Source: Arenicola marina (lineage: Eukaryota; Annelida; Polychaeta; Arenicolidae). Taken from it: DNA of 64,000 bases. Below, one piece after another: positions 7,701 to 63,632 of the stretch. Each line of letters begins with the position of its first letter. The first letter of the stretch is position 1. The translations under genes and the position numbers were made by a program. The notes below the pieces were generated by a model. That model saw only the letters and a list, made by a program, of their open reading frames with translations, had not been told where the DNA came from and made no database searches. The DNA lies in contig OZ025252.1 in NCBI GenBank assembly GCA_964019135.1, positions 48,210,959-48,274,958 on the forward strand, given 5' to 3'.

Positions 7701-10700
7701 GATGTGTCTTCCCTGTATGACATTCATGTCATGTGTAGATGTGTGTCTTCCCTGTATGACATTCATGTCATGTGTAGATGTGTGTCTTCCCTGTATGACA
7801 TTCATGTCATGTGCAGATGTGTGTCTTCCCTGAATGACCTTCATGTCATGTGTAGATGTGTGTCTTCCCGGTATGACATTCATGTCATGTGTAGATGTGT
7901 GTCTTCCCTAAATGACCTTCATGTCATATGTAGATGTGTGTCTTCCCTGTATGACATTCATGTCATGTGTAGATGTGTCTTCCCTGTATGACATTCATGT
8001 CATGTGCAGATGTGTGTCTTTAATGTATGACATTCATGTCATGTGTAGATGTGTGTCTTCCCTGAATGACCTTCATGTCATGTGTAGATGTGTGTCTTCC
8101 CTGTATGACATTCATGTCATGTGTAGATGTGTCTTTCCTGTATGACATTCATGTCATGTGTAGATGTGTGTCTTCCCTGTTTGACCTTCATGTCATGTGT
8201 AAAGGTGTGTTTTCCCTGTATGACATTCATGTCATGTGTAAAGGTGTGTTTTCCCTGTATGACATTCATGTCATGTGTAAAGGTGTGTTTTCCCTGTATG
8301 ACATTCATGTCATGTGTAAAGGTGTGTTTCCCTGTATGACATTCATGCCATGTGTTGATATGTGTCTGAATTTATGGGTATTAATTATGCGGATTAATTA
8401 TGCATCATTAGTATAGTTTTACCGCAACTTTAGGCTTGGTCCGATAGGCTTTGACACATCGATGGAGGCCTGCTACAAGCCTCATCACGTGACACTGTTA
8501 TTGCAGGCCTGGACCTTCTATTACAATGGCTTGGACTGTCACCCGATGACCTTCCAAATATGGCGGCCAACAACGGGCGGTTACATCCTGGTGGGTCAGA
8601 ATGTGAAGGACGACTCCATATGTTCACAAGGAATAGAAGGTGGGTTACCTCCTGGTGGGACAGAATGTGAGGGACGACTCCATCTGTTCACACAGAATAG
8701 CAGGTGGGTTACATCCTGGTGGGTCAGAATGTGAGGGACGACTCCATCTGTTCACACGGAATACCAGGTGGGTTACATCCTGGTGGGTCAGAATGTGAGG
8801 GACGACTCCATCTGTTCAAGCGGAACACCAGGTGGGTTACATCCTGGTGGGTCAGAATGTGAGGGACGACTCCATCTGTTCACACAATATACCAGGTGGG
8901 TTACATCCTGGTGGGTCAGAATGTGAGGGACGACTCCATCTGTTCACACGGAATACCAGGTGGGTTACATCCTGGTGGGTCAGAATGTGAGGGACGACTC
9001 CATCTGTTCAAGCGGAACACCAGGTGGGTTACATCGCGGTGGGTCAGAATGTGAGGGACGACTCCATCTGTTCACACCATATAGCAGGTGGGTTACATCC
9101 TGGTAGGTCAGAATGCGAAGGACGACTTCATCTGTTCACACGGAATAGCAGGTGGGTTACATCCTGGTGGGTCAGAATGTGAAGGACGGCTCCATCTGTT
9201 CAAGCGTAATACCAGGTGGGTTACATCCTGGTGGGTCAGAATGTGAGGGACGACTCCATCTGTTCAAGCGGAACACCAGGTGGGTTACATCGCGGTGGGT
9301 CAGAATGTGAGGGACGACTCCATCTCTTCACACAATATACCAGGTGGGTTACAACCTGGTGGGTCAGAATGTGAGTGACGACTCCATCTTTTCACACAAT
9401 ATACCAGGTGGTTAGATCCTGGTGGGTCAGAATGTGAAGGACGACTCCATCTGTTCACAAGGAATAGCAGGTGGGTTACATCCTGGTGGGTCAAAATGTG
9501 AAGGACGACTCCATCTGTTCAAGCGTAATACCAGGTGGGTTACATCCTGGTGGGTCAGAATGTGAGGGACGACTCCATCTGTTCAAGCGGAACACCAGGT
9601 GGGTTACATCGCGGTGGGTCAGAATGTGAGGGACGACTCCATCTCTTCACACAATATACCAGGTGGGTTACAACCTGGTGGGTCAGAATGTGAAGGACGA
9701 CTCCATCTGTTCACACGGATAAGCAGGTGGGTTACATCCTTGTGGGTCAGAATGTGAAGGACGACTCCATCTGTTCACACGGATCAGCAGGTGGGTTACA
9801 TCTTTGTGGGTCAAAATGTGAGGGACAACTCCATCTGCTCACAGGAAATAGCAGGTGGGTTACATCCTTGTGGGTCAGAATGTGAAGGACGACTCCATCT
9901 GTTCACACGGATAAGCAGGTGGGTTACATCCTTGTGGGTCAGAATGTGATGGACGACTCCATCTGTTCACACGGATAAGCAGGTGGGTGACATCTTGGTG
10001 GGTCAGAATGTGAAGGACGACTCCATCTGTTCACACGGAATAACAGGTGGGTTACATCCTGGTGGGTCAGAATGTGAGGGACGACTCCATCTGTTCACAC
10101 GGATAAGCAGGTGGGTGACATCTTGGTGGGTCAGAATGTGAAGGACGACTCCATCTGTTCACACGGAATAGCAGGTGGGTTACATCCTGGTTCAGTCAGA
10201 ATGTGAAGGACGGCTCCAACTGTTCACACAGTATACCAGGTGGGTTACATCCTGGTGGGTCAGAATATGAAGGACGACTCTATCTGTTCACACGGAATAG
10301 CAGGTGGGTTACATCCTGGTGGGTTAGAATGTGGGGGATGACTCCATCTGTTCACACAATGTACCAGGTGGGTAGCATCCTGGTGGGTCACAATGTGAGG
10401 GACGACTCCATCTTTTCACACGTAATAGCAGGTGGGTTACATCCTGGTGGGTCAGAATGTGAGTGACGATTCCATCTGTTCACACAATATACCAGGTGGG
10501 TTACATCCTGGTGGGTCAGAATGTGAAGGACGACTCCATCTGTTCATACAATATACCAGGTGGGTTACATCATGGAGGGTCAGAATGTGAAGGACGACTC
10601 CATCTGTTCACACAATATACCAGGTAGGTTACATCCTGGTGGGTCAGAATGTAAAGGACGACTTCATCTGTTCATACAATATACCAGGTGGGTTACATCA

Positions 10701-13700
10701 TGGAGGGTCAGAATGTGAAGGACGACTCCATCTGTTCACACAATATACCAGGTAGGTTACATCCTGGTGGGTCAGAATATGAAGGACGACTCTATCTGTT
10801 CACACGGAATAGCAGGTGGGTTACATCCTGGTGGGTTAGAATGTGGGGGATGACTCCATCTGTTCACACAATGTACCAGGTGGGTAGCATCCTGGTGGGT
10901 CACAATGTGAGGGACGACTCCATCTTTTCACACGTAATAGCAGGTGGGTTACATCCTGGTGGGTCAGAATGTGAGTGACGATTCCATCTGTTCACACAAT
11001 ATACCAGGTGGGTTACATCCTGGTGGGTCAGAATGTGAAGGACGACTCCATCTGTTCATACAATATACCAGGTGGGTTACATCATGGAGGGTCAGAATGT
11101 GAGTGACGATTCCATCTGTTCACACAATATACCAGATGGGTAGCATCCTGGTGGGTCAGAATGTGAGGGACGACTCCATCTGTTCACAAAATATACCAGG
11201 TGGGTTACATCCTGGTGGGACAGAACGCGAGGGACGACTCCATCTGTTCACACGGAATAGCAGGTGGGTTACATCCTGGTGGGTCAGAATGTGAAGGACG
11301 ACTCCATCAGTTCGCACGGAATACCAGGTGGGTTACAGCCTGGTAGCTCAGAATGTGAGTGACGACTCCATCTTTTCACACAATATACCAGGTGGTTAGA
11401 TCCTGGTGGGTCAGAATGTGAAGGACGACTCCATCTGTTCACACGGATAAGCAGGTGGGTGACATCTTGGTGGGTCAGAATGTGAAGGACGACTCCATCT
11501 GTTCACACGGAATAGCAGGTGGGTTACATCCTGGTTTAGTCAGAATGTGAAGGACGGCTCCAACTGTTCACACAATATACCAGGTGGGTTACATCCTGGT
11601 GGGTCAGAATATGAAGGACGACTCCATCTGTTCACACAATATACCAGGTGGGTAGCATCCTGGTGGGTCACAATGTGAGGGACGACTCCATCTTTTCACA
11701 CGTAATAGCAGGTGGGTTACATCCTGGTGGGTCAGAATGTGAGTGACGATTCCATCTGTTCACACAATATACCAGATGGGTTACATCCTGGTGGGTCAGA
11801 ATGTGAAGGACGACTCCATCTGTTCACACAATATACCAGGTGGGTTACATCCTGGAGGGTCAGAATGTGAAGGACGACTCCATCTGTTCACACAATATAC
11901 CAGGTAGGTTACATCCTGGTGGGTCAGAATGTAAAGGACGACTTCATGTGTTCACACAATATCCCAGATGGGTAGCATCCTGGTGGGTCAGAATGTGAGG
12001 GACGACTCCATCTGTTCACACAATATACCAGGTGGGTTACATCCTGGTGGGTCAGAATGTGAGTGACGACTCCATCTGTTCACACGGATAAGCAGGTGGT
12101 TAGATCCTGGTGGGTCAGAATGTGAAGGACGACTCCATCTGTTCACACGGATAAGCAGGTGGGTGACATCTTGGTGGGTCAGAATGTGAAGGACGACTCC
12201 ATCTGTTCACACGGAATAGCAGGTGGGTTACATCCTGGTTTAGTCAGAATGTGAAGGACGGCTCCAACTGTTCACACAATATACCAGGTGGGTTACATCC
12301 TGGTGGGTCAGAATATGAAGGACGACTCCATCTGTTCACACAATATACCAGGTGGGTAGCATCCTGGTGGGTCACAATGTGAGGGACGACTCCATCTTTT
12401 CACACGTAATAGCAGGTGGGTTACATCCTGGTGGGTCAGAATGTGAGTGACGATTCCATCTGTTCACACAATATACCAGGTGGGTTACATCCTGGTGGGT
12501 CAGAATGTGAAGGACGACTCCATCTGTTCACACAATATACCAGGTGGGTTACATCCTGGAGGGTCAGAATGTGAAGGACGACTCCATCTGTTCACACAAT
12601 ATACCAGGTAGGTTACATCCTGGTGGGTCAGAATGTAAAGGACGACTTCATGTGTTCACACAATATCCCAGATGGGTAGCATCCTGGTGGGTCAGAATGT
12701 GAGGGACGACTCCATCTGTTCACACAATATACCAGGTGGGTTACATCCTGGTGGGTCAGAATGTGAGGGACGACTCCATCTGTTCACACGGAATAGCAGG
12801 TGGGTTACATCCTGGTGGGTCAGAATGTGAGGGACGACTCCATCTGTTCACACAATATACCAGGTGGGTTACATCCTGGTGGGTCAGAATGTGAAGGACG
12901 ACTCCATCTGTTCACACGGAATAGCAGGTGGGTTACATCCTGGTGGGTCAGAATGTGAGTGACGACTCCATCTGTTCACACATTATACCAGGTGGGTTAC
13001 ATCCTGGTGGGTCAGAATGTGAAGGACGACACCATCTGTTCACACAATATACCAGGTGGGTTACATCCTGGAGGGTCAGAATGTGAAGGACGACTCCATC
13101 TGTTCACACAATATACCAGATGGGTTACATCCTGGAGGGTCAGAATGTGAAGGACGACTCCATCTGTTCACACAATATACCAGGTGGGTTACATCCTGGT
13201 GGGTCAGAATGTGAAGGACGACTTCATGTGTTCACACAATATACCAGATGGGTAGCATCCTGGTGGGTCACAATGTGAGGGAAGACTCCATCTGTTCACA
13301 CGGAATAGCAGATGGGTTACATCCTGGTGGGTCAGAATGTGAGGGACGGCTCCATCTGTTCACACAATATACCAGGTGGGTTACATCCTGGTGGGTTAGA
13401 ATGTGAAGGACGACTTCATCTGTTCACACCGAATAGCAGTTGGGTTACATCCTGGTCGGTCAGAATGTGTTGGACGGCTCCATCTGTTCACCCAATACAC
13501 CAGGTGGGTTACATCCTGGTGGGTCAGAATGTGAGGGACTACTCCATCTGTTCACACAATATACCAAGTGGGTTACATCCTGGTGGGTCAGAATGTGAGG
13601 GACGACTCCATCTGTTGACACAATATACCAGGTAGGTTACATTCTGGTGGGTCAGAATGTGAAGGACGAGTCCATCTCTTCACACCATATACCAGGTAGG

Positions 13701-16700
13701 TTACATCCTGGTGGGTCAGAATGTGAGGGACGACTCCATCTGTTCACACAATATACCAGGTGGGTTACATCCTGGTGGGTCAGAATGTGAAGGACGACTC
13801 CATCTGTTCACACAATATACCAGGGGGTTACATCCTGGTGGGTCAGATTGTGAAGGACGACTCCATCCGTTCACACGGAATAGCAGGTGGGTTACATCCT
13901 GGTGGGTCAGAATGTGAGGGACGACTCCATCTGTTCACGCAATATACCATGTGGGTTACATCCTGGTGGGTCAGAATGTGAGGGACTACTCCATCTGTTC
14001 ACACAATATACCAGGTGGGTTACATCCTGGTGGGTCAGAATGTGAAGGACGACTCCATCTGTTCACACAATATACCAGGTAGGTTACATCCTGGTGGGTC
14101 AGAATGTGAAGGACGACTCTATGTGTTCACACAATATACCAGGTGGGTTACATCTTGGTGGGTCAGAATATGAAGGATGACTCCATCTGTTCACACAATA
14201 TAAACAGGTGGGTTACATCCTGGTGGGTCAGAATGTGAAGGACGACTCCATCTGTTCACACAATATACCAGGTGGGTTACATCCTGGTGGGTTAGAATGT
14301 GAGGGACGACTCCATCTGTTCACACAATATAAACAGGTGGGTTACATCCTGGTTGGTCAGAATGTGAGGGACGACTCCATCTGTTCACACAATATATCGG
14401 GTGGATTACATCCTGGTGGGTCAGATTGTGAAGGACGACTCCTTCTGTTCACACAATATACCAGGTGGGTTACATCCTTGTGGGTCAGAATGTGAAGGAC
14501 GACTCCATCTGTTCACACAATATACCAGGTGGGTTACATCCTGGTGGATCGGATTGTGAAGGACGACTCCATCTGTTCACACGGAATAGCAGGTGGGTAA
14601 CATCCTGGTGGGTCAGAATGTGAGGGACGACTCCATCTGTTCACGCAATATACCAGGTGGGTTACATCCTGGTGGGTCAGAATGTGAGGGACTACTCCAT
14701 CTGTTCACACAATATACCAGGTGGGTTACATCCTGGTGGGTCAGAATGTGAAGGACGACTCCATCTGTTCACACAATATACCAGGTAGGTTACATCCTGG
14801 TGGGTCATAATGTGAAGGACGACTCTATGTGTTCACACAATAAACCAGGTGGGTTACATCCTGGTGGGTCAGAATATGAGGGACGACTCCATCTGTTCAC
14901 ACAATATAAACAGGTGGGTTACATCCTGGTGGGTCAGAATGTGAAGGACGACTCCATCTGTTCACACAATATACCAGGTGGGTTACATCCTGGTGGGTCA
15001 GAATGCGAGAGACGACTCCATCTGTTCACACAATATAAACAGGTGGGTTACATCCTGGTTGGTCAGAATGTGGGGGACGACTCCATCTGTTCACACAATA
15101 TACCAGGTGGATTACATCCTGGTGGGACAGAATGTGAAGGACGACTCCTTCTGTTCACACGATATACCAGGTGGGTTGCATCCTGGTGGGTCAGAATGTG
15201 ACGGACAACTCCATCTGTTCACAGACTATACCAGGTGGGTTACATCCTGGTGGGTCAGAATGTGAGAGACGACTCCATCTGTTCACACAATATAACAGAT
15301 GGGTTACACCCTGGTGGGTCAGAATGTGAAGAACGACTCCATCTGTTCACACGGAATAGCAAGTGGGTTACATCTTGGTAGGTCAGAATGTGAGGGACGA
15401 CTCCATCTGTTCACACAATATACCAGGTGGGTTACATCCTGGTGGGTCAGAATGTGAAGGACGACTCCATCTGTTCACACGGAATAGCAGGTGGGTTACA
15501 TCCTTGTGGGTCAGAATGTGAAGGACGGCTCCATCTGTTCACGCGGAATAGCAGGTGGGTAACACGCTGGTCGGTCAGAATGTGAGGGACGACTCCATCT
15601 GTTCACACGGAATAGCAGGTGGTTTACATCCTGGTTTAGTCAGAATGTGAAGGACGACTTCATCTGTTCACACGGAATAGCAGGTGGGTTACATTCTGGT
15701 GGGTCAGAATGTGAAGGACGACTTCATCTGTTCACACGGAATAGCAGGAGGGTTACATCCTGGTGGGTCAGAACTTTAGGGATGACTCCATCTGTTCACA
15801 CGGAATAGCAGGTGGGTTACATTCTGGTGGGTCAGAATGTGAAGGACGACTTCATCTGTTCACACGGAATAGCAGGTGGGTTACATCCTGGTGGGTCAGA
15901 ACTTTAGGGACGACTCCATCTGTTCACACGGAATAGCAGGTGGGTTACATTCTGGTGGGTCAGAATGTGAAGGACGACTTCATCTGTTCACACGGAATAG
16001 CAGGTGGGTTGCATCCTGGTGGGTCAGAACTTTAGGGACGACTCCATCTGTTCACACGGAATAGCAGGTGGGTTACATTAGCAGGTGGGTTACATTCTGG
16101 TGGGTCAGAATGTGAAGGACGACTTCATCTGTTCACACGGAATAGCAGGTGGGTTACATCCTGGTGGGTCAGAACTTTAGGGACGACTCCATCTGTTCAC
16201 ACGGAATAGCAGGTGGGTTACATTCTGGTGGGTCAGAATGTGAAGGACGACTTCATCTGTTCACACGGAATAGCAGGTGGGTTACATCCTGGTGGGTCAG
16301 AACTTTAGGGACGACTCCATCTGTTCACACGGAATAGCAGGTGGCTTCACATTCCTACGTCCTGGTGGGGTCAAAATGCGAAGGACGACTCCATGTGTTC
16401 ACACAATATACCAGGTGGGTTACATCCTGGTGGGTTAGAATGTGAAGGACGACTTCGTCTGTTCACACGGAATAGCAGGTAGGTTACATCCTGGTGCGTG
16501 CGCTGGTCCTTCAGATGGTATAACAATGGTATTTGACATTGACGTCACCCATTATTAGCATGTTATACAATCTTTGCGCCATCATATAATATTCGTTATT
16601 TCCGCCTTTCACTCAGGTGTCGTCAACGTGCTTCTGATGGTCGCGGATTATATCCAAGTCCAGCCCGGCGATGTCTATGGCTGGTGAGTGGCCTTCTCCT

Positions 16701-19700
16701 CTCCCGGTCACTCTCAACCACGTGTTTGTGGGTCCGGATCCCCCTTCCAGGCCTTGTACTTATTCCTTCTGGATCCCGCTCTTATGGCTCGCTATAATGT
16801 ATGTGTCAGCCTGGATCCGCATCTCGCTAGCACTACTCCGCACATCAAAGGTCCTGCCCCACGCTTCAAATCTGGAGCATGTTTAACCCATTCAGCCTTC
16901 ATCGTCCCTGGAGGAACCCTGACTCAATTTAGCCTGTGCACAAAAACATCAATTCATTTTATTTCGTTGATCTCTCGTTCTGGATCATGCATAGCATGGC
17001 ATATATAAATATATCTACATGTCTCGATCAATCTCTCAACCCAGTTTACCACCAGATATTATCTAACCTTTGGGATCACCAGGATCTACATCTATATTTG
17101 TTACCGTGTCCAACTGTCCCGCATTTCCTAAGCTTGGGCTTGGCTCCAGGAGAGACGACCAAACCATCCCGACGGTCACTCGGGTGATCCCGTACAACGA
17201 GGCGCTCTCTGGATCCGGACAGTACGGCCAGGTCCTGATCCTGGAGAAGTCGGCCGCATCCTGCTCCGGAACCCCCGGCCAGACGTGCCCCTGGGTGCCC
17301 GTCCAGGCCGGCGGGGAGGCCAAGGTCACAGTCCGAGATTACTCACTGATTGCGGTAGTGCAAGAAGGTCAGTGTCCGGCGCGGTATGGCCGTCAGGGTG
17401 GAACAAAACACAGGTCCCGAACAATTAAAGTCGGTTATTACATACCAACCCTTTCTGTCGTCTGTTTTTAGTGTATTTCACAGTTCAAATATAAGCTTAA
17501 TTAAAAAATAATAATCATTGAGGCCATTTTCTGTTCGTATTTGAGTTGTCGCGCTGGCCCACGGTAACCTGTTCTCCCTCTCCCACCTGACTGGTGACCC
17601 ACCCTCCCTCCCGCCCTCCAGGGGTGCCGCCCTACTTCAGCAACCTGCCGGCCACCGCACCGCTGTACGAGAACGAGGCTGCAGGGACGCTGGTGTACAA
17701 GGTGGAGGGCTTCAACTCCTTCAGCGCGACGACGGCCGTGCCGCCCGACCTGGTGTACACCCTGAAGACCGCCACGCCACCGGCTACCGCCTGCGATATC
17801 ACTGACTTCGCCATCGACGCCGGTACAGGTAGGCGCGGCTTGATCCAATTGTGCATGATATTATATATTGCTTTTATTGTTGGCGCCATGTCACCTCACA
17901 TGCGGACCGCAAGACAGTCATCAAAACTGTACTTGTATTAAAGTTATTATTCAGTATTATAGTTATTATTACTAATTAATATGGTTTGTCCAGTGCTTGT
18001 TTGATTGTCATTTCCACTGACAGGCGAGATCACAACAACGGGGCCCCTTGACCACGAGACGGCGCCGTCAACATGTGTACTTGAGATCCAGGTCATAGAG
18101 GACCCGGCGACACCGTTACTAGAGACTCTGACGGTGGAGATCCTGGACGTGAACGAGCCGCACGACCTGACAGGACTGCCCGCCACCGTCGTCCTGGACG
18201 CGGCCATCGACAACACCGGGTTCACGGTAACTAGAGTCAACACCGGATTGTAATACCACTTGGCAATTACAAGTATAACACACATGTTATATTGCTTTAA
18301 TAGAAATATTATAGGATGACTGTTGAATAAATCATGCATAACCGTAATACATTGCACAGAAATTCAAATTTGATAATTGTTGTGGTTCACATAATTCTCT
18401 AATATCATTAAATTTGGAATACTTATGGTGTCAGCTTCTGGGCTGTGCGTAATGCTTAACTAACACAGGATTATAACTGACGAACCAGTGGATTATGAGT
18501 CCATCTTGTAACCATCGAGTGAACACGTCGTTTTGCCCATACTATCTGTTTTTCTTCGCTTTATGATAGTAGTTGTGTCACCTACCTCCGCTGGGCGCTG
18601 CACTAGTTGGCTTGAATTTGAGATTTTGTTCATTATGGATACATATAATACACATGCAATTTATGTCTATAGGTAATAGATTTGGATTTTTCTGATCTTG
18701 ACGACTCGGGAAGCGTCTTGGGTGGCCCGATCACTTTCCACATGCAGTACTCCACTCCACCCAACGCCCCCGTCACCCTGAACGCTAACACAGGTAGGTG
18801 GTGCCTTACCACGTACAGTACTCCACTCCACCCAACGCCCCCGTCACCCTGAACGCTAACACAGGTAGGTGGTGCCTTACCACGTACAGTACTCCACTCC
18901 ACCCAACGCCCCCGTCACCCTGAACGCTAACACAGGTAGGTGGTGCCTTACCACATACAGTACTCCACTCCACCCAACGCCCCCGTCACCCTGAACGCTA
19001 ACACAGGTAGGTGGCGCCTTACCACGTACAGTACTCCACTCCACCCAACGCCCCCGTCACCCTGAACGCTAACACAGGTAGGTGGTGCCTTACCACGTAC
19101 AGTACTCCACTCCACCCAACGCCCCCGTCACCCTGAACGCTAACACAGGTAGGTGGTGCCTTACCACGTACAGTACTCCACTCCACCCAACGCCCCCGTC
19201 ATCCTGAACGCTAACACAGGTAGGTGGTGCCTTACCACGTACAGTACTCCACTCCACCCAACGCCCCCGTCACCCTGAACGCTAACACAGGTAGGTGGTG
19301 CCTTACCACGTACAGTACTCCACTCCACCCAACGCCCCCGTCACCCTGAACGCTAACACAGGTAGGTGGTGCCTTACCACGTACAGTACTCCACTCCACC
19401 CAACGCCCCCGTCACCCTGAACGCTAACACAGGTAGGTGGTGCCTTACCACGTACAGTACTCCACTCCACCCAACGCCCCCGTCACCCTGAACGCTAACA
19501 CAGGTAGGTGGTGCCTTACCACGTACAGTACTCCACTCCACCCAACGCCCCCGTCACCCTGACCGCTAACACAGGTAGGTGGTGCCTTACCACGTACAGT
19601 ACTCCACTCCACCCAACGCCCCCGTCACCCTGAACGCTAACACAGGTAGGTGGTGCCTTACCACGTACAGTACTCCACTCCACCCAACGCCCCCGTCACC

Positions 19701-22700
19701 CTGAACGCTAACACAGGTAGGTGGTGCCTTACCACGTACAGTACTCCACTCCACCCAACGCCCCCGTCACCCTGAACGCTAACACAGGTAGGTGGTGCCT
19801 AATTTTTTGTCCTGATATCTAAATACAAGTATTGATATAAACGTCGTCACATGACGTTTTGCATCTCAATTTTAATGAGAAATTTATCAGTGTAACTGGA
19901 AAATAATAATATGAGTTACTCCACGTGTGTGTTCATGTTCATGCCTGGTGTGTTGTCCTGTGGCTCCACCAGGTAAGATCACCGTGAGCCAGGACCTGGA
20001 TGACTGGCTCTCCCCGCTGTACTTCACCGTCGGGTACGTGGCTGCGGACTCGGACTTCTACTCGGGACCGAAGGAGCTGACGATCCTGATCACCAACATC
20101 CGCCAGCCCCCCATCCTCACCAACCTGGAGGCCACCGTCACCGTCCCGGAGGACGTCCTGGGAATCCCTAACGATGTCATCTACGATGTAAGAGCTTTCC
20201 GTAACTTGTCCCATGTAGGCCCTGTAGACAATCTCCCGGCAGAGGTCGCTCGTTCCTCACGTCATATATCCTTTGCCCCACGTAAAAACCCATTTATTGG
20301 TCGTGGGGTGGGTCGTGGGGTCACGCACGTTTTTCGAGGATTTTTTAGCTTGAATTTTACAATTTGGACGCATCATTTAAACAATGTAGCCTTCTCGTTA
20401 TTGTTGATCACATTTGTGAAATTAAGTGAAAAGCCCGTAATTTCAAAATGACTCATTAAAACATTAAATAGCTGCACGCCTTTGACCTCGATCGAACTTA
20501 AAATCTATTTCGCAAATAACATGGCGGGAAATTAATCAACATAGAATGAGTTTATCCGGGGCGGTACTATTTAGGACGCCCTCTGCCGGGTGATCGACGA
20601 AGCTATATAAATAACTACAAATTTATTTCTGGCGTTCTTTGTAAACTAAAAGGTTCGTAATCGATCGATTAATGTTTCGGGTTCTCTAATATCTTATTTG
20701 AGCGTTATCTGAAAAGTGGGAGATGTTTCCATGAAGAACATTCTATTGATATTTTAGTCGGTCTATGTAAACCTATATATGACTGCAAATGAGCTCGTAA
20801 CCTCTTTGTGTAAACTAATTGTACTGGTTGTAATTAGTTTGTAATTGATCGATAAAAGATACGGCTTCATGTATTATCAGCTTGATATCTTGATGCACTG
20901 TTCTGTTGTTGTTTTCTGCGATGTGGGGAATTCCATAGGAATTCAACGTCACCATGGTAACAGTGGGCGTCATTCAATCTCTTTCATATCGATGCATGAT
21001 CTGACCATTTAACGCATGCGCGGTATCGTTTCCGGTGAAATGGACAGGTGAATGGCAAGCTTTTGCCTGACAACCGCGGCGGCGGTAAACGCTTCAACAT
21101 CACACAAGTCTACCCGCTGACGACTCAACAAGGCATATTTACAATCAATGAATTCAGTAAGTCTCCCCTTGCTCCCCAACTTCCCTCTCAACAGGACGCC
21201 CGCTATTTGGTCTCTACATTACAGCCGCAAGTTTGTGTGTTTCTGTGTGACAGGTGGATGGGCAGGAGGTACCAAGTGACAGCAGGGGAACACCTTTGGA
21301 CTTTGCCATCGCCGAAGTCTTCCCCAGAACTGCTGCTGCCGACTTGTTCACAATAGACACCAGTAAGTGGGACGGCTGCCATGGTTACCAGGCCAGCGCT
21401 CCCTGCTACTCACCCCAAACAGAGTTCTGATTTCCACAGTTCGGCATCTGACTGCGCCACAGTTCGGAAGCTGTGCTGTAGTTCGGCATTCTGCTCTGGT
21501 GACGTCATGGTTATTATATAAAGCCTTTGACAGCATGGAACTCTCCTCCACCAATCAACCACACCGCCACGGTGGCGGTCGCCACACCCCCTGTGGTGCC
21601 TGGGTGATTGTGTGACTCTCCTCCACCAATCAACCACACCGCCACGGTAGCGGTCGCCACACCCCCTGTGGTACCTGGGTGATTGTGTGACTCTCCTCCA
21701 CCAATCAACCACACCGCCACGGTAGCGGTCGCCACACCCCCTGTGGTACCTGGGTGATTGTGTGACTCTCCTCCACCAATCAACCACACCGCCACGGTAG
21801 CGGTCGCCACACCCCCTGTGGTACCTGGGTGATTGTGTGACTCTCCTCCACCAATCAACCACACCGCCACGGTAGCGGTCGCCACACCCCCTGTGGTGCC
21901 TGGGTGATTGTGTGACTCTCCTCCACCAATCAACCACACCGCCACGGTGGCGGTCGCCACACCCACTGTGGTGCCTGGGTGATTGTGTGACTCTCCTCCA
22001 CCAATCAACCACACCGCCACGGTGGCGGTCGCCACACCCCCTGTGGTGCCTGGGTGATTGTGTGACTCTCCTCCACCAATCAACCACACCGCCACGGTAG
22101 CGGTCGCCACACCCCCTGTGGTGCCTGGGTGATTGTGTGACTCTCCTCCACCAATCAACCACACCGCCACGGTGGCGGTCGCCACACCCACTGTGGTGCC
22201 TGGGTGATTGTGTGACTCTCCTCCACCAATCAACCACACCGCCACGGTAGCGGTCGCCACACCCCCTGTGGTGCCTGGGTGATTGTGTGACTCTCCTCCA
22301 CCAATCAACCACACCGCCGCGGTGTCGGTCGCCACACCCCCTGTGGTGCCTGGGTGATTGTGTGACTCTCCTCCACCAATCAACCACACCGCCACGGTAG
22401 CGGTCGCCACACCCCCTGTGGTGCCTGGGTGATTGTGTGACTCTCCTCCACCAATCAACCACACCGCCACGGTAGCGGTCGCCACACCCCCTGTGGTGCC
22501 TGGGTGATTGTGTGACTCTCCTCCACCAATCAACCACACCGCCACGGTAGCGGTCGCCACACCCCCTGTGGTGCCTGGGTGATTGTGTGACTCTCCTCCA
22601 CCAATCAACCACACCGCCACGGTAGCGGTCGCCACACCCCCTGTGGTGCCTGGGTGATTGTGTGACTCTCCTCCACCAATCAACCACACCGCCACGGTGG

Positions 22701-50197: not shown

Positions 50198-50268
50198 TTC
50201 ATCAAGCTGTATTTTCATTAGGCCGAGGGCGGATAATGAAAATAAAGAGCTGCTACAGCTTGATGAAA
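50198..50268. repeat. Foldback sequence
   Basis: TTCATCAAGCTGTA pairs with TACAGCTTGATGAA, and ATTTTCATTA with TAATGAAAAT, around loop GGCCGAGGGCGGA. Possibly a tiny non-autonomous element of the same style as 37165-37266. Confidence 0.6.
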
Positions 50269-52500: not shown

Positions 52501-52504
52501 AGGT

Positions 52505-53150: not shown

Positions 53151-54481
53151 CACGTGGGGTCATCCAGTCACTTTGACCGCGCTGAGTACAGTCGGCCACA
53201 GAGACCTCATTGCCGGAAGAATGCCAAAGGACCCTGGCGAAGGAATGCAAAACCACCCGAAGAATAGTTTTGCCCGATACTCGGTGCTTGGCGGAGAAGA
53301 ATTCTGACAATGGCACGCGCGGAGACAGAGCAGGATTGTCGAGGACATAAAACTGTCGTGTGACAACATGTGTCATTGTTCACGCCATGAAGGCAGCTGT
53401 GGTCCGCTAGGGACTCACATAGCTACACATGTACCTCCACTGGCATTGGTGCAGGAGGCAGCAAACGAATGCGTTATCTAACATGGACTCAAGCAGGGTA
53501 GTCCGTTTTATTAACACAAGCTTATCTAGGGAATACAAAGACACTCCAAACGCCAGACAGTCATTCACCGAGAAGGTGTGGCTTCATATAACTGATTACA
53601 GGAGTCTCGGCCTTGCTATTACTGACATGTGGAATCCAACGGCCACAGTAATCGTCTCGGGCATCACCTCCGGGACTAAATAAGACTTGTGTAGGTTTAA
53701 TTACTTTGTTCAGACCATAAATATGTCCATTCAATTATAAGTAATCATGGTCGAAAGTGTTCGTCCCGATGGCTCACCCCAAAATCTAAAACTACACATC
53801 TCGGCCATGACATACCAGACGATATGTCAGCTTGTGGTGATAACTGTTTGATCGGTGCTTGTCAGATCATGCTCCCTTGTTCCTTATCAGTGGTGTAGAT
53901 CTTAGAAACAGAAGGACACAGACGTCAGCATGTGACATGTGAACGTCCCTAATGATGTGTATTAGACTCTTGACAGTTATTTACACCTAAGGTACGGCTT
54001 AGCGTCTCAATGTTTGGCGCCCATGTGACAAGGAACAATTTTAGAGTAACTGTTTCTAGTAATTTTGATATATGACTGGTGGCAATGTTCACATGACTAT
54101 AATGTCTATCACACGACACTCGAGAGAAAACATGTCCTTTTGGTGTGCACATTACTTGAAAGAATGTGATTTTATGAGGTAATCAAACGGCAACCAGGAG
54201 ATTAAATGTAATAAGAGCTCGTGTCTTGGCCACCTGCCCCGAAGGCTGGCCAGCAGGTGTCTGTATGACTCACGGTACGTCATTACTGACATCATAGGGC
54301 CATACAGGGCGCGCAGAATATCAGTATTCTGTGTTTTTTTGCTCATTTTTTTCTTCTACAAACATATGTATTGATCGACAAAGCAAGGTTCGTGTATGGT
54401 AGACGCCAGACATGTCCCTTACCCGGTGTCCAGCGGGCTTGCGTTGGCAGTGTGATACCTTACGTACGGCGCGACAACGTC
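53151..54481. other. Sequence upstream of gene B
   Basis: Unique, no coding exon supported. The promoter and 5' UTR of gene B are expected here but no core element can be defended. Confidence 0.5.
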
Positions 54482-54566
54482 ATGTGCGTTTCCCAGCGCG
54501 TCCACGCAGTTACCATAGCAACGGTAACACTAGCCATGTTTAGTGTGTTGCCTCTGCATGCACAAG
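54482..54566 (+). CDS. Gene B exon 1: start codon and signal peptide
   Basis: The ATG at 54482 is the first in its open frame. It encodes MCVSQRVHAVTIATVTLAMF then SVLPLHAQ, a fair signal peptide, and ends before GTAAGG in phase 1 as in gene A exon 1. The donor and the following 30 nt or so are the seed of the array at 54567-55310. Confidence 0.7.
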
Positions 54567-56452
54567 GTAAGGCAATATATCAAGCAATATATCAACTTGT
54601 TAACTTAAAAAGGTAAGGCAATATATCAAGCGATATATCAACTTGTTAACTTAACAAGGTAATGCAATATGTCAAATTGTTAAGGTAACAAGGTAAGGCA
54701 ATATATAAACTTGTTCATGTATCAAGGTAAGGCAATATATCAAGTTGCTAAGGTATCAAGGTAAGGCAATATATCAACTTGTTAAGGTAACAAGGTAAGG
54801 CAATATATCAACTTGTTAGGGTATCAAGGTAAGGCAATATATCAACTTGTTAAGGTATCAAGGCTAGGCAATATATCAACTTGTTAACTTAACGAAGTAA
54901 GGCAATATATCAAGCACTATATCAACTTGTTAACTTAACGAAGTAAGGCAATATATCAAGCACTATATCAACTTGTTAACTTAACGAAGTAAGGCAATAT
55001 ATCAAGCACTATATCTACTTGTTAACTTAACGAAGTAAGGCAATATATCAAGCACTGTATCTACTTGTTAACTTAACGAAGTAAGGCAATATATCAAGCA
55101 CTATATCAACTTGTTAACTTAACGAAGTAAGGCAATATATCAACTTGTTAAGGTAACAAGGTAAGGCAATATATCAACTTGTTAAGGTATCAAGGCTAGG
55201 AAATATATCAACTTGTTCACTTAACGAAGTAAGGCAATATATCAAGCACTATATCAACTTGTTAATGTATCAAGGTAAGGCAATATATCAAGCAATATAT
55301 CAATTTGTTATCAAGCTCACTGTATGTTCTGGTAAATGCCACATTTGATATCAATGTACAATAGTAGCCTGGGCCCAAGGAACCCTACGAAACATATATA
55401 TATAATTTCTATCTTGCTTGTGTAATTGTCGGGCCCAGCTAATATCATGGTTAGAGCGGTATTGTTGATATGTTCATGCTTAAGACTTGAACAAGAAAAG
55501 TTGAAAATATATTGGACTTGTAGACCTTGATGTAATTGTATGTTTAGGCTAGATTAGGTGTTCGCTGGAGAATGAACGCTGGTGTGTGGCGTTACCTGTT
55601 GTACCCCTTACATCAACACCATGATACTGACGCCAGATTAAACAGACATCCGTCTAGGAATATGTCTAGACATGGGTATCATAGGTGTCATCAGCGAACT
55701 GCTGGAATCAACATGGCGGGGGTAGAGTATATATGGCCCCTGTAGCAGTCTCGCTTGTGGTAAGGCAGGCGAAATGTGGGCCACGACCGACCAGTTCTGG
55801 TCGTTATCTCAGTCTCAATAGCTACGAGGATAACTTCTCTGCTGTAGATCCCGCGTGCATTGGTGACGTCATAGGGTCTGACGTTATTTACCGTCCTAAT
55901 CACGTGACATCAAGCGTGAACGACGAAGCTTTCCTGGCCGTCACCAAGGGAACCATTGACTGTCATGGCGTCATCGAGGTCAGAGTTCACTTCCTAAATC
56001 ATCCAACATCTGTTATGTAATCTGCGTCATGCGTGAGCTCTACACCAATTTAAATTATAATATTCTCGTTCTGGTGAAGTTGTACAGAAAGAATATTGCC
56101 CCATGTGCCCCCTTCTTCAGAGAAAGGGGGCCACTTGCCCTTTTTGCACCCTGTGCCCCCCCCCCCCTCCTGGATCCGCCACTGTATATCACTTCAACTA
56201 TCAACTACTGCGACCAGATTTCAATTGGTATTATTAGATACCCGCACTTTCATTACAAGAACTGGTCCGACTCGTTATTAAAGTTGCATATCGAGCCCTT
56301 TTCTGCCATAACTAAAAGAGGTCAAAATACAAACAAAAATTAGTCCTTGAATCGTCCAAAATTTCTTTGTTATGGCGAAAATCGCCGTCGTGTCGATCAG
56401 TTCTGTTTGCGTGTGTGTTTGTTTGTTGTTTCTTATGTCGGTGTGTTCGGTG

Positions 56453-56487
<35 letters not shown>

Positions 56488-59400
56488 GTGTCTGTCTGTC
56501 TGTCTGTCTGTCTGTAGACGCATTATCTGTCGAATGCCTAAAGATACCGTTCTCTTCTTTTACCAAAACATTCCGACAGCCAATCGACAGGTCAAGTTCG
56601 TGAATGGGCAATATAACTCAAAGGTCAAGGTCACGATGACGTCATACGTCCAAAACACATTTTTCGCTCTAGCTCTCTTAATATTGCAGTTAGAGAGCCG
56701 CAATTAGTGTCAAAATACTCAGCTCCTCAAAATCTTTCGCATCACTGACAACAGATTTGACGTAGAATGAAAGGTTTTCGCGTCACAGCCTCTTGAAAAT
56801 TGCAAATTTTGGATTTTTAATTTGTTTTTATCAAGTTTGAGATATCGACTCCGCCTTCTGCACAGACAATGCCACGGCCCACCGTCAGGCTAAGTTCGTA
56901 GATGGGCCGTGTAGGTCAAAGGTCAAGGTCACAGGAATTTTTCGAATTTCGCTTAACCATTGAAAGATAGGACCAAAAAACGGAAAAATCGCTAAACGAC
57001 ACCTTGCGTGAGACATGACATTAGTTTTTGGGCCAAAGCACTATATTAATCAAGGTCACGCTTCCAAGGTCAAGGTCACAACAAGGTCAAGGTCACGAAT
57101 CTTGTTTTTCTTCGTAGCTCCGTTAATATTGGCTCCAGAGATCCGCGGGTTGTCTCACGGTATTCTTCTTAGAGAGGCACAAAAGACGTGTGGTCTCAGA
57201 TTTCACCTCACATTTATAGGTTTCGAGCTATTGGATGGTTAAATTTGACCCGAATAAAAATGGAGAAAAATCGCTGTGCCTAAATAAATGCAGATAGACA
57301 TCCTTTATGTCGTGGAATAGGTACCAATATTACTGACATCATGTGTGCCAAATGCCTTTCAAAACAGACGAGTGCGTTGCACGCAAAAAAACAAAGACAT
57401 TTAACATGGCCGATCCCATTATAAAGCTTCGATACGCCAAATGACTCACGGCGCGGGGACATTTCGGCCTATACTCTGTCAGTAATGCATGTACATAGTC
57501 GGCACTCGCTATATATATTCCAGTTGCACTTATCCCCAGATTTTCGTCTCCTTCTCAAGCTACGCTTGACGTTCTCGTCTGTCTGTCTGTCGTCACGATA
57601 ACTGTCGACCACTTGCAGCTATCGTTGTCAAACTTCGCCAACAGATGCCAGAAGTCTAATCTCAGGTCAAGTTCGTTGCCGGGTGAAATCGGTCAGACGT
57701 CAACGTCACTGTCATGTCATACGTCCAAAACACATTTCCCGGTCCAACTCGCTTAATATTACAGCTAGAAAAACGAAATTAGTGTCTATATACTTAGCCC
57801 CTGAATATATTTCTCGTTTTTGCCATCAAATTTTACGTAGGATCAATAGCTTTCACGCTACAGGCTTTGGACATTTTTTCACACAATTTTTTTTCCTTAA
57901 ATCTCAAAGCGATTGTCGCGAGACTTTCCAGGGACATTAAAGGTGCCGTATGTCAAAAATCATGGTGATCCCATCAATAATGTCGGTTTCCTAGGCGACG
58001 AAAGTCCCCATTATGAAATTTTCCAATGGAAGTTTTTGTCCCTCAGATTTCGACAACTTGCCATACAGGTATCTCAACGCCGCTTGGCAGGGACATTTGG
58101 TCCGCCACCTAGATAGATTACGCCAAAAATTACGGCGATCGAATTCGCAGTATTCGTTTCCAAGGCAACGGAAAATCCCATTATGAAAGATACACATTTT
58201 ACTTTTTTCCCTGTTTGGTGCAGTTATAATGCACATAGCCTCAAGCTACTTGGCACAGACTTCCTAGGTGTTGGCCTTATATATTATGTGGAAGATGAAT
58301 GCAATCGGACCGTTACTTTTTGTTTCCATAGCAAAGCAAAAATGGCCCAATGGTAAAAGATTTTTTTGAAATTGACCATGTGCCCAAAACATAGAAACCT
58401 ATAAGCCACGCAACTCATCTTTGACACAAAGATTACTTAAGATCGTATCTTAAAATCGATTATATTTCAACAACCTGGGTTAAGGGTCAAGGTCGTGACC
58501 TTGACTATTGTAAATGTCCGAAGAGACTTCAAAATGGTATAACGCTCAAAAATCGCCGTATTAGCACTTTTGCGTAAACAATCATTGCAATGGTGAACTA
58601 TACGGCTTTTCCCTTCTCCTATCGCAACACCCCCCTCCCGCACCGCCTTCTTCCTGCCCGCTAATACACACTCGCATGCAAGCTGTGAACCGCTACGCTG
58701 GCGCACACGGCTCAACTCACCCCTCCTCCCCTACCGCACATCCGTACCTATGTGCTGGTGGCCGATCCGCTGCCTGTCAGCAGCTTGCTGCATGGTGCTC
58801 TTATCGTAATGCGAGCGTACCCCCCAGTGACACCCCCCCCCCCCCTGCTATCCCCCCCAGACCCCAATTGAGGTCGAGATGACAGCAATGGCATCGGCAT
58901 GTAAAGCTGCGAAACGCTGTAATTTCTTAAATAATTGGCCCAGAAGATCCCGGTTTGATTTATTATGTTGCAGCGAGACGACCCCCATGCATCAGTCATG
59001 CGTCATCAGACATCTATTTGAGCCATAAGCTCTTAGCCGCCAGGGTGACTTGCCTTGTCTATATTTCACGCATGACAGACTGCCAAATGGAGTCTCTTAG
59101 CCTTGCCCGTGATATGAATTAACCGCAAGTTTTCAACTTAGTGGTAAACGTCATCAGTTTTTGTAGTTCGCGATGCTTTGTTATAAGTAGCAGTGACGCG
59201 ACAGAGTTCTGTGGTGTCCCGGGATAGACACATTTGCCACATCACAGCCAAATCCGCGATGTTTATTAGGTTTCTTAATTTAATCGCGTTTTCTGCAAAT
59301 TGTGATATATATATCGCCTGGGCTTTGATTGTGGCGGGAAAAGCTCGACAAGCAGGTTTAAGCTCTTCTATTGTCAAAAGGATAATTTTTCAGTAGTCTT

Positions 59401-62400
59401 AGAACATCAACTTGCTTTGAGAGATTTATACATACTTGTATTTACTGAATGTTTCCTTGCTTTGCCCGGGTCGTCTCTCGGTGTCCCCGATATGTCTGGT
59501 TAGCGCTGGGATATCTGGGTCGAAGCGGGCGTCGCGTGTCATCCAATCACAATGCAGGTCTGGCGGCCGGTAGGGGGCGCCGCCGACACCTACGTGCTGA
59601 TTGGTCAGAATCACCTGGATGAGGCATTCTGGGATGCCAATTGCTCAGTGTATCCGTATGGTAAGTCCGTGCTGCTTTGGTATAACTGTAACTATGACGA
59701 CTCTATCACTCGTTTCGACATATTGATTAACGTATTTACTATTTAAACAATTAGTTAATGGTTTAACAGTTTCGATTCAAAATCATACGGCTAAATTCTC
59801 TCATAAAACGAAATTTACCTTTAATTTTTTTATTTCCATTTAGTGTTATCACCATTTACGTATTTCCAGGCTGGATGTAAATGAGCTGCTTTAGAAAGGA
59901 AATAAAAGAATACGTACCATAACCTAAATACAGTTAAATGTCTTGTTCATATTGGGACCGGCAGCTCCGACGACCCTGCCGACAACCTCGACATGGACCA
60001 CGTCACCACTGACAACGGGGTGGACCAGCCAGACTGACGTCATCACCATGTCCACTGATGACGTCACTTCTGAGCCCGTGACATATGACGTCACTGGTAA
60101 CACCGTGACATACGTAGCTACTGATGTCACCGTGACATATGACGTCACAAGTGATACCACAACGAGTGACGTCACTAGTGATACTACTACGACTGACGTC
60201 ACTGATAGCACAATGACCCATGTCGTCTCAACGGACGATCTCTCGGCCACTACCCGTGGCACCACTGTAGATGACGTCACTACCTCCGTCACCACCGTAG
60301 ATGACGTCACTACCTCCGTCACTACTGAAGATGACCTGACCACCACGTTCCTCCCGACCACTGACGTCTTTACCACACAACCACCCCCATACATCGGAGG
60401 TGACGTGGTGCTTGAGATCTAATGTCTTCTGCCAATAATTAAACTATTTATGATTAAACTATTTTCGACGCATAAAAAAACCCATTTTGACATCTTTGAT
60501 CAAGTCATCCGGGTTGATTTATCTGACATTGTAACGTCTTGACCTTAGTCTCTCTAAAACTTTCTAATATTATTTATGTACAATTGAAACAAGCGTAGAA
60601 GCTTTGAGGACAACAATGTATTCTATGTTATCTCTTATCTTACAGAGGTGGTCAGCTTCCACATCCCGAACCAGGACCGACTTCCGGTTCAACCCGGAGA
60701 CATCTATGGATGGTGGGTAGTGTGTGGACCTAAAGGTTAGAAGGTGACATCCAGGAGATAAAACTAATGGGTCTGCATTCTAGTTGCAAAATTCTGACAC
60801 AAAAACATGAACATAAAACATTCGCTGACAGGAGGAAAATGAAAAGTCAAATCATTCCTAGGACCACACATATAGCTTTAATTAATTAATTAATTAATTA
60901 ATTAATCGGTTCAGAGCATCAATACGTTTCTATGCGAACGTCCATACAATTATAGCCTATCATGGCAGAAAATATTTGTCCTGACGGCACACCCCAAAGT
61001 CTAAGACTATACATGAACATACATTTTTCACTTGGTCGGCAAGATAATTTAGATGGGCTAATTTAAAGTGCACTAGGACTCGATGGTAAACTACTCTATG
61101 AAAACTTAATTAATTAGTTAATGATTCTGCCCAGGGTTGCCCAGGGCCGCCTAGCGAGTAACAAGACCTGTCCCAGAGTTTACCGGGTTAACACGGTGGC
61201 GCTGCCTAGCGAATGACAAGACCTATAACATGTCTCCCGTTCTGTACCAGGGTTGACCGGGGTAACACGCTAGCGCCGCCTAGCGAGTAACAAGACCTGT
61301 CCCAGGGTTGACCGGGGTAACACGGTGGCGCCGCCAACCGAGTGACAAGACCTATAACATGTCTCCCGTTCTGTCCCAGGGTTGACCGGGGTAACACGGG
61401 GGCGCCGCCTACCGAGTGACAAGACCTATAACATGTCTCCCATTCTGTCCCAGGGTTGACCGGGGTAACACGCTAGCGCCGCCTAGCGAGTAACAAGACC
61501 TGTCCCAGGGTAGACCGGGGTAACACGGTGGCGCCGCCTACCGAGTGACAAGACCTATAACATGCCTCCCGTTCTGCCCTAGGGTTGACCGGGGTAACAT
61601 GGTGGCGCCGCCTAGCGAGTGACAAGACCTATAACATGTCTCCCGTTCTGTCCCAGGGTTGACCGGGGTAACACGGTGGCGCCGCCAACCGAGTGACAAG
61701 ACCTATAACATGTCTCCCGTTCTGTCCCAGGGTTGACCGGGGTAACACGGGGGCGCCGCCTACCGAGTGACAAGACCTATAACATGTCTCCCGTTCTGTC
61801 CCAGGGTTGACCGGGGTAACACGGTGGCGCCGCCTACCGAGTGACAAGACCTATAACATGCCTCCCGTTCTGCCCCAGGGTTGACCGGGTTAACACGGTG
61901 GCGCTGCCTAGCGAATGACAAGACCTATAACATGTCTCCCGTTCTGTACCAGGGTTGACCGGGGTAACACGGTGGCGCCGCCAACCGAGTGACAAGACCT
62001 ATAACATGTCTCCCGTTCTGTCCCAGGGTTGACCGGGGTAAGACGGGGGCGCCGCCTACCGAGTGACAAGACCTATAACATGTCTCCCGTTCTGTCCCAG
62101 GGTTGACCGGGGTAACACGGTGGCGCCGCCTACCGAGTGACAAGACCTATAACATGCCTCCCGTTCTGCCCCAGGGTTGACCGGGGTAACATGGTGGCGC
62201 CGCCTAGCGAGTGACAAGACCTATAACATGTCTTCCGTTCTGCCCCAGGGTTGACCGGGGTAACACGGTGGCGCCGCCTACCGAGTGACAAGACCTATAA
62301 TATGTCTCCCGTCCTGTCCCAGGGTTGACCGGGGTAACACGGTGGCGCCGCCTAGCGAGTGGCAAGACCTATAACATGCCTCCCGTTCTGTCCCAGGGTT

Positions 62401-63632
62401 GACCGGGGTAACACGGTGGCGCCGCCTAGCGAGTGACAAGACCTATAACATGTCTCCCGTTCTGTCCCAGGGTTGACCGGGGTAACACGGTGGCGCCGCC
62501 AACCGAGTGACAAGACCTATAACATGTCTCCCGTTCTGTCCCAGGGTTGACCGGGGTAACACGACGGCGCCGCCTACCGAGTGACAAGACCTATAACATG
62601 TCTCCCGTTCTGTCCCAGGGTTGACCAGGGTAACACGGTGGCGCCGCCTAGCGAGTGACAAGACCTATACCATGTCTCCCGTTCTGTCCTAGGGTTGACC
62701 GAGGTACCACGGTGGCGCCGCCTAGCGAGTGACAAGACCTATAACATGTCTCCCGTTCTGTCCCAGGGTTGACCAGGGTAACACGGTGGCGCCGCCTAGC
62801 GAGTGACAAGACCTATAACATGTCTCCCGTTCTGTACCAGGGTTGACCGGGGTAACACGGTGGCGCCGCCTACCGAGTGACAAGACCTATAACATGCCTC
62901 CCGTTCTGCCCCAGGGTTGACCGGGGTAACACGGTGGCGCCGCCTAGCGAGTGACAAGACCTATAACATGTCTTCCGTTCTGCCCCAGGGTTGACCGGGG
63001 TAACACGGTGGCGCCGCCAACCGAGTGACAAGACCTATAATATGTCTCCCGTTCTGTCCCAGGGTTGACCGGGGTAACACGGTGGCGCCGCCTAGCGAGT
63101 GACAAGACCTATAACATGTCTCCCGTTCTGTCCCAGGGTTGGCCGGGGTAACACGGTGGCGCCGCCTACCGAGTGACAAGACCTATAACATGTCTCCCGT
63201 TCTGTCCCAGGGTTGACCGGGGTAACACGGTGGCGCCGCCTAGCGAGTGACAAGACCTATAACATGTCTCCCGTTCTGTCCCAGGGTTGACCAGGGTAAC
63301 ACGGTGGCGCCGCCTAGCGAGTGACAAGACCTATACCATGTCTCCCGTTCTGTCCTAGGGTGGACCGGGGTAACACGGTGGCGCCGCCTAGCGAGTGACA
63401 AGACCTATAACATGTCTCCTGTTCTGTCCCAGGGTTGACCGGGGTAACACGGTGGGTGTGACCGACACCCGGCTGTTGGCCTACGACGAGGGTCTCCCCA
63501 ACCTGGGCCTGGTGTTGGTTCTACCCTCAGCCTCCTGCCCCCTCACCGTCGGCAAGGAGTGCGCTTGGTTGCCAGGCACGGCCTCCACAGCAACAATAAG
63601 GGACTACTCGCTGCAGGCGATACTAAGCCAAG
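54482..63632 (+). CDS. Gene B: tandem paralogue of gene A (N-terminal part; runs off the right edge)
   Basis: Six exons (54482-54566, 55848-55978, 59504-59660, 59965-60399, 60646-60712, 63433-63632) join in phase to 1075 nt, i.e. 358 aa, and the last ends in phase 1 at a good donor. Five of them match gene A exons 1-5 in order, phase and motif. The fourth, a Thr-rich exon, has no counterpart in gene A. By analogy the cadherin repeats, membrane helix and tail should follow outside the window. Same strand and 5.6 kb behind gene A, so an unequal-crossover tandem duplicate is the simplest origin. The N-terminal domains have diverged well beyond allelic difference. Confidence 0.8.
54562..55310 (+). 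repeat. Array in gene B intron 1 repeating the donor region of exon 1, 34/50-bp units
   Basis: Units of AAG|GTAAGGCAATATATCA with ACTTGTTAAGGTATC or AAGCACTATATCAACTTG. The first copy is the real exon 1 donor (CACAAG|GTAAGG). Only about 4-6 exon bases are repeated, so derivation from the exon edge is less certain than for the others. Confidence 0.85.
55848..55978 (+). CDS. Gene B exon 2: N-terminal domain, first part
   Basis: Acceptor CTCTGCTGTAG, donor GTCAGA, phases 1/0. It encodes DPACIGDVIGSDVIYRPNHV, then NDEAFLAV and TIDCHGVIE, collinear with gene A exon 2 (both Cys, RPN.VT, DE.FLA, CHG). Confidence 0.83.
55979..59503. repeat. Gene B intron 2, rich in dispersed AGGTCA-bearing repeats
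   Basis: Related segments recur at about 56575-56710, 56860-56950 and 57590-57790: CAGGTCAAGTTCGT, then AAGGTCAAGGTCAC, ACGTCATACGTCCAAAACAC, CGCTTAATATT.CAG. Also (TCTG)n at 56455-56515 and a C-rich segment with GGATCCGCCACTG near 56150. No open reading frame typical of a transposase or reverse transcriptase was seen. The style is familiar from bivalve genomes (recollection, not a search). Confidence 0.6.
56455..56515. repeat. (TCTG)n microsatellite
   Basis: About fifteen TCTG/TGTC units with one TGTG interruption. Confidence 0.92.
59504..59660 (+). CDS. Gene B exon 3: N-terminal domain, QVWRP/YVLIGQN segment
   Basis: Acceptor TGTCTGGTTAG, donor GTAAGT, phases 0/1. It encodes RWDIWVEAGVACHPITMQVW, RPVGGAADTYVLIGQNHLDE and AFWDANCSVYPY. 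Homology to gene A exon 3 ([11 protein letters not shown]...YILVGQN) sets the start upstream of the first ATG. Unlike gene A exon 3, its 3' end has not been amplified into an array. Confidence 0.82.
59965..60399 (+). CDS. Gene B exon 4: Thr/Asp/Val-rich mucin-like exon
   Basis: Acceptor GGACCGGCAG, donor GTGACG, phases 1/1, exactly 145 codons, open throughout. It encodes APTTLPTTSTWTTSPLTTG then repeated DVT units (VTYDVTGNTVTYVATDVTVT, TTSDVTSDTTTTDVT, DDVTTSVTT) and ends TTQPPPYIG. The phases fit exons 3 and 5 of gene B. High Thr/Ser content suggests an O-glycosylated stalk inside the N-terminal domain. Because both phases are 1, skipping it would keep the frame, so it may be a cassette exon. 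Eight TGACGTCA octamers lie inside it. Confidence 0.72.
60646..60712 (+). CDS. Gene B exon 5: VQPGDIYGW segment
   Basis: Acceptor ATCTTACAG, donor GTGGGT, phases 1/2, 67 nt, same as gene A exon 4. It encodes EVVSFHIPNQDRLPVQPGDI and YGW. Confidence 0.83.
60713..61130. other. Gene B intron 5, unique start
   Basis: AT-rich, contains (ATTA)n at about 60879-60905. No gene seen. Confidence 0.55.
61131..63452 (+). repeat. Minisatellite, 74-bp unit ending in the acceptor and start of gene B exon 6
   Basis: About 31 copies of GTTGACCGGGGTAACACGGT, GGCGCCGCCTAGCGAGTGAC, AAGACCTATAACATGTCTCC, CGTTCTGTCCCAGG, with a few shorter units near the left end. Each carries a pyrimidine tract and CCCAG|G, and the first about 20 nt of exon 6 (GGTTGACCGGGGTAACACGG). 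The last copy merges into exon 6. Confidence 0.95.
63433..63632 (+). CDS. Gene B exon 6: end of N-terminal domain
   Basis: Acceptor TTCTGTCCCAG, donor GTCAGT, phases 2/1. It encodes VDRGNTVGVTDTRLLAYDEG, LPNLGLVLVLPSASC and WLPGTASTATIRDYSLQAIL. It is collinear with gene A exon 5. The acceptor and about the first 20 nt of the exon form the 3' end of the 74-bp unit repeated about 31 times upstream. The last copy runs into unique exon sequence and is taken as real. Confidence 0.82.

Follow-up and report, generated by a model that had tools for sequence, protein, structure and literature searches.

Eight minisatellites in a 64,000-nucleotide window of contig OZ025252.1 (positions 48,210,959 to 48,274,958 of the forward strand) each contain a true exon edge of one of two neighbouring genes: gene A, encoding a protein of the cadherin superfamily, and gene B, a paralogue of its N-terminal part. 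The edges are four donors (exons A3, A8, A14 and A19) and four acceptors (A12, A13, A17 and B6). By structure these arrays are mirages, as tandem repeats at exon-intron boundaries are called in amphioxus, and they match the amphioxus cases in anatomy (PMC3087553; PMC3902484; papers are cited by PMC number for the parts of their text that were available, and statements on them refer to those parts). It is likely that they are minisatellites of this mirage type that grew neutrally over exon ends and have been tolerated since the outermost real splice site stays usable.

Arrays at the exon edges

The initial annotation of the window claimed that these eight arrays hold real exon edges, and all eight cases were borne out on a rebuilt exon model, which has the same exon numbering. 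In this model of gene A all introns have AG acceptors and GT donors, and the exons form a single open frame of 1149 amino acids. Splicing at the outermost sites, meaning the first copy in the donor arrays and the last copy in the acceptor arrays, gives this open frame.

The arrays were called by Tandem Repeats Finder (TRF), and its 57 rows were merged by hand into 32 arrays. The tested set consists of the 26 arrays situated within gene A or exons 2–6 of gene B; the other six, including the one at the candidate first exon of gene B (B1), lie outside both gene spans and were excluded. In a hand-merged list of 23 arrays, tandem repeats cover 42.1 of the 64 kb, and 15.2 kb of that belongs to the eight edge-spanning arrays. 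The introns carrying two of the donor arrays, A3–A4 and A19–A20, are 7977 and 2795 nt long, respectively. The A12 repeat is irregular: the TRF row (38368–38541) ends short of the exon, and the third, real copy was identified by hand. The excluded array at B1 contains nine matches to AGGTAAGG and seven to GAAGTAAGG, and the adjoining exon is only a candidate, a 31-nt ATG frame with a fitting phase. The features are listed in Table 1.

Table 1. Positions of the genes, exons and arrays in the window
Feature	Position	Strand	Description
Gene A exon 3	8507..8639	+	last 61 nt and donor lie within the 64-bp unit
A3 donor array	8579..16496	+	64-bp unit, ~123 copies
A8 donor array	18734..19800	+	71-bp unit, 15 copies; exon 18673–18793
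A12 acceptor repeat	38317..38646	+	exon start 38579; spacings 118, 85, 118 bp; edge present three times, the middle one without AG
A13 acceptor array	39212..39401	+	57-bp unit, 3.3 copies; exon start 39362
A14 donor array	39913..40339	+	41-bp unit, 10.6 copies; exon end 39931
A17 acceptor array	41611..41863	+	90-bp unit, 2.8 copies; exon start 41822; first copy without AG
A19 donor array	45001..47652	+	69-bp unit, 38.4 copies; exon end 45045
B6 acceptor array	61146..63455	+	74-bp unit (55/129-bp variants), ~32 copies; exon start 63433
Array at candidate gene B exon 1 donor	54562..55310	+	46/34-bp unit
Gene A, ATG to stop	1645..48848	+	21 coding exons (alternatives 10a/10b), cadherin-superfamily protein, 1149 aa
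Gene B exons 2–6	55848..63632	+	paralogue of the gene A N-terminal part; continues past the window end

We infer the duplication mechanism and the choice of copy by the spliceosome as follows. A short segment across an exon edge would be tandemly duplicated by an ordinary error, either unequal exchange or slippage, and the duplicated unit would then be expanded and partly homogenised. Growth of the array would add length to the intron only, the remaining copies being inert intronic decoys. Such an array would be tolerated because the first copy at a donor, or the last copy at an acceptor, still adjoins the intact exon. Exon definition would give preference to the copy that is paired with the site at the other end of a real exon. 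The locus is thus a dense natural test of a spliceosome choosing one site among up to ~123 similar copies.

In the A13 array (39212–39401), the portion of the 57-bp unit that lies in the intron is similar, by eye, to the exon 13 sequence about one period onward. From its sequence, this resemblance may represent the short homology behind the first duplication.

Evolution of the copies

The splice dinucleotide, counting the real copy, is retained in 112 of 123 copies of A3 (GT is lost at 11 sites), 15/15 of A8, 10/11 of A14, 38/38 of A19 and 32/32 of B6; in the short arrays it is retained in 2/3 (A12), 3/3 (A13) and 2/3 (A17). Hence the retention of the splice site described in the initial annotation holds for most copies. 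The copies might be maintained in such a state by selection, either for redundant splice sites or for a role in splicing regulation, and the most frequent copies of the four donor arrays do score level with the real sites under a simple matrix built from the window. The five arrays with at least ten copies (A3, A8, A14, A19, B6) were used for selection tests, and these argue otherwise. The mean identity of the splice dinucleotide over the five arrays is 0.982, compared to 0.962 for random adjacent column pairs (P=0.168), and thus the sites are no better kept than other pairs. In A3, the donor G is retained in 92.7% of copies, the unit mean being 92.9%; 68 of the 87 distinct changes in the exonic part are nonsynonymous (0.78, with the expectation of 0.75), and 10 of 123 copies, the real exon being left aside, contain a stop codon. 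Hence the splice-site redundancy proposed in the initial annotation is highly unlikely to be what maintains the copies. They behave as neutral sequence, kept alike through youth and homogenisation, and A3, the only array that varies enough for this, shows neutral drift.

The same variation bears on whether the arrays were falsely expanded in the assembly. The A3 copies differ from each other, only four of the 122 full internal copies being identical to the consensus, and the copy at the real exon has seven differences from the consensus over the 64 positions. The A8 array is less telling against an artefact, as 11 of its 14 copies are identical. On balance, false expansion is a very improbable source of the arrays.

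The units were also compared with the arrangement in which a donor unit lacks acceptors and an acceptor unit lacks donors. Six of the seven tested units fit this rule (A12 was left out). A random segment of unit size has a site of a given kind 13–27% of the time; since random segments seldom hold a given site, six one-kind units of seven is the chance level, and the rule was rejected.

Relations between the units and comparison with the paralogue

The units of the arrays seem to have been amplified independently, as the initial annotation suggested. Among the 55 pairs formed by 11 units (eight edge-spanning and three intronic), the best pair was reached by one of 100 shuffles, which is the chance level for 55 pairs. 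A single spreading repeat family was therefore rejected, the lowest value, 0.01, being compatible with chance.

For two of the eight arrays the paralogue provides a comparison, the A3 donor corresponding to B3 and the B6 acceptor to A5; the other six have no counterpart in the window. The A3/A4 and B3/B4 introns are both in phase 1, four residues past a common Cys-Ser (as counted by hand, the automatic alignment having gaps there), and the A4/A5 and B5/B6 introns, both in phase 2, interrupt one shared Trp codon. Around the B3 donor and the A5 acceptor no periodicity was observed, the best self-match being 0.34 and 0.33, respectively, compared to 0.85 for the A8 control. Most simply, the A3 and B6 arrays would have arisen after the split of the paralogues, at pre-existing introns, the alternative being loss in one of the paralogues.

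This comparison also concerns the possibility that the arrays are nascent introns, produced by tandem duplication of an exon segment bearing AGGT. Such a route of intron gain is known (PMC3443670; PMC10809524), and the AG|GT of the A14 unit scores 9.2 both as a donor and as an acceptor. However, both introns that can be compared are shared with the paralogue, hence neither is a new intron made of a duplicated segment, and six of the seven tested units carry sites of one kind only. We regard an origin of the arrays as nascent introns as most unlikely.

Enrichment at exon edges

A process targeted at exon edges was among the explanations proposed in the initial annotation. We compared the observed number of edge-spanning arrays with that expected under several models of placement. 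For this purpose each array was collapsed to one unit, leaving the two genes with 17,072 nt, 50 junctions and 26% of exon sequence; the A12 unit was taken as 118 bp, although one copy has 85 bp. The locus had been chosen for its striking look, and the period cut-off of 40 bp was set after inspection of the data.

Under random placement, 8 of the 26 arrays span an edge, with 2.7 expected (P=2.7e-3); for periods of at least 40 bp it is 8 of 11, with 2.0 expected (P=9.8e-5, about 1e-4). If wholly exonic placements are barred, the expectation is 3.3 of 26 (P=8.9e-3) and 2.4 of 11 (P=3.3e-4), eight being observed in each case. The collapsed exon sequence has 59.2% GC, and the remainder, 41.2%, values that would suit an amphioxus. 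When placements were matched in GC content and wholly coding ones were barred, the excess of the long-period arrays became weak, 8 of 11 with 4.5–4.8 expected (P 0.016–0.026 over four settings), and over all arrays the count was 8 of 26 with 5.9 expected (P=0.17). Without A12, the long-period figures are 7 of 10, compared to 1.7 expected at random (P=2.6e-4) and 4.0 under GC matching (P=0.031). The GC matching is conservative, because the GC-richness of a unit partly comes from its exon content.

The wholly coding arrays, three in number, have periods of 27, 30 and 21, each divisible by three; the same holds for three of the eight edge-spanning and five of the 12 intronic arrays (these are small numbers). 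This is expected if coding damage is removed. We infer that GC-rich exons, together with removal of duplications that disrupt the coding sequence, explain most of the edge bias, leaving a weak residue.

An alternative is a mutational process focused on exon-intron junctions beyond what composition predicts, such as stalling of replication or transcription, R-loops at GC steps, or recombination in the vicinity of splice sites. Consistent with it are the 8 of 11 long-period arrays at edges, the similar GC content of edges with and without arrays, and two further arrays, of 43 bp (38757–39095) and 45 bp (48101–48562), which start 12 nt past the exon 12 donor and 8 nt past the exon 20 donor, respectively, without covering the edges. 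On the other hand, this is a single locus picked as striking, with a post hoc cut-off, and GC matching over all 26 arrays leaves 8 with 5.9 expected (P=0.17). Thus, the excess of edge-spanning arrays stands under random placement and largely fades under GC matching, and we consider a junction-focused process unlikely. It is likewise improbable that the exon edges of this animal are true hotspots of minisatellite birth beyond GC content and selection, with mirages being a wider animal phenomenon if the host is not an amphioxus; were it the case in such a host, splice junctions would be among the fastest-changing parts of genes. At that, the locus calls for caution, as a striking overlap between repeats and exon edges can stem largely from GC-rich exons and selection against coding damage.

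Several observations weigh against the neutral account of the arrays given above. The long-period arrays keep a residual edge excess under GC matching. The GC content of the exon end, considered as a predictor of array-bearing edges, shows no difference, being 0.60 in ends with arrays (n=8) and 0.58 in those without (n=44); array-bearing ends are hardly GC-richer, and thus GC content does not say which edges acquire arrays. On the intron side the values are 0.57 at array edges and 0.47 at the others, a comparison confounded by the fact that the intron side lies within the arrays. In the B6 array, AG is intact in 32 of 32 copies at a mean array identity of 94.5%, and just 18% of adjacent pairs are equally conserved. 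The A8 and A19 arrays are too uniform for the selection test, and in the latter the other copies carry 11 synonymous and two nonsynonymous changes, the distinct ones being only one of each. Finally, the copy numbers of A12, A13 and A17 are too low for this test. The two results on composition pull in opposite directions: the all-array GC-matched test weakens targeting, and the exon-end comparison weakens the GC account.

Known mirages and related systems

The Adh3 mirage of amphioxus was reportedly described by Canestro et al. in 2002, as papers citing that work have it.

The initial annotation knew of no named description of such a system; in fact, exon-intron boundary repeats are named mirages in the amphioxus Adh, globin, troponin C and PGBD5 genes (PMC3087553; PMC3902484). 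The globin examples are BflGb6 and BflGb9 (PMC3087553), and those of troponin C and PGBD5 were described in PMC3902484. The units are 10–72 bp in Adh3, about 150–160 bp in the globins, and 60 and 108 bp in PGBD5; boundaries of both types are hit, and the length is unstable, somatically so at Adh3 (PMC3087553; PMC3902484). RT-PCR suggests that published mirages are spliced regularly (PMC3087553). The arrays of genes A and B resemble these in that the units contain the boundary of the host gene in all eight cases, both kinds of boundary are affected (four donors and four acceptors), the unit sizes fall in the range of 10 to about 160 bp, and AG or GT is present in many, though not all, copies. 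Unlike the amphioxus mirages, eight arrays occur here in two neighbouring genes, and the copy number reaches ~123, compared to 3 and 6 units in BflGb6 and at most seven in PGBD5.

Human segmentally duplicated genes likewise have minisatellites on exon-intron boundaries of paralogous genes (PMC2812944). There, the repeats can yield new introns and alternative splicing, whereas here two of the introns also occur in the paralogue, where the corresponding array is absent. Intron gain by tandem genomic duplication similarly involves a duplicated segment with a splice-like AGGT (PMC3443670), but in our case pre-existing introns were lengthened. Dual-specific splice sites occur in tandem repeats, e.g. 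in UBC (PMC10809524), and the A14 unit is comparable; however, it is the only such unit of the seven tested (A12 was outside the test), and it is so by predicted score.

Outside amphioxus, we found no named equivalent of the boundary-repeat structure beyond the human cases, judging mostly by titles and the openings of abstracts. In abalone there is an intronic minisatellite, with none at exon edges in the available parts of the paper (PMC6905558), and in C. elegans splicing motifs and a minisatellite were described near alternative exons (PMC4039745). In the text available for amphioxus huntingtin, tandem repeats are only mentioned (PMC2206037). The name "Mirage" in PMC7960049 refers to a transposon.

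Gene models and other repeats

The whole gene A protein matches the Pfam Cadherin family in two stretches (E 5e-29), and its score with a FAT4-type cadherin model is below the cut-off of that model. Relatives with solved structures, matched by the N-terminal 855 residues out of 1149, include CELSR1, protocadherins and cadherin-23, as seen among the best 60 of 148 matched sequences. Exon 19 contains a hydrophobic stretch that, judged by eye, resembles a single membrane helix. Exons 10a (21048–21156) and 10b (21254–21362) have an equal length of 109 nt, equal phases and similar peptides, and are situated 97 nt apart; these features suggest a mutually exclusive pair.

The partial gene B protein encoded by exons 2–6 has no Pfam match at 0.01. 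Relative to gene A, it carries an additional Thr-rich exon, B4 (60058–60335), which is made up in part of coding repeats with units of 27 and 30 bp and for which the gene A model has no equivalent. Searches of the window for tRNA genes and Rfam families (at the gathering score) yielded no match, nor was a related viral contig found. In the region 55900–58600, GGTCAAGGTCA-like motifs are abundant by eye, possibly representing an old dispersed repeat.

Downstream of the 10a/10b pair, the intron contains a 14.7-kb array (21540–36243) formed by 196 copies of a 75-bp unit with 97% matches. Two units of this array, folded as RNA, give z of -2.5 relative to shuffled sequences.

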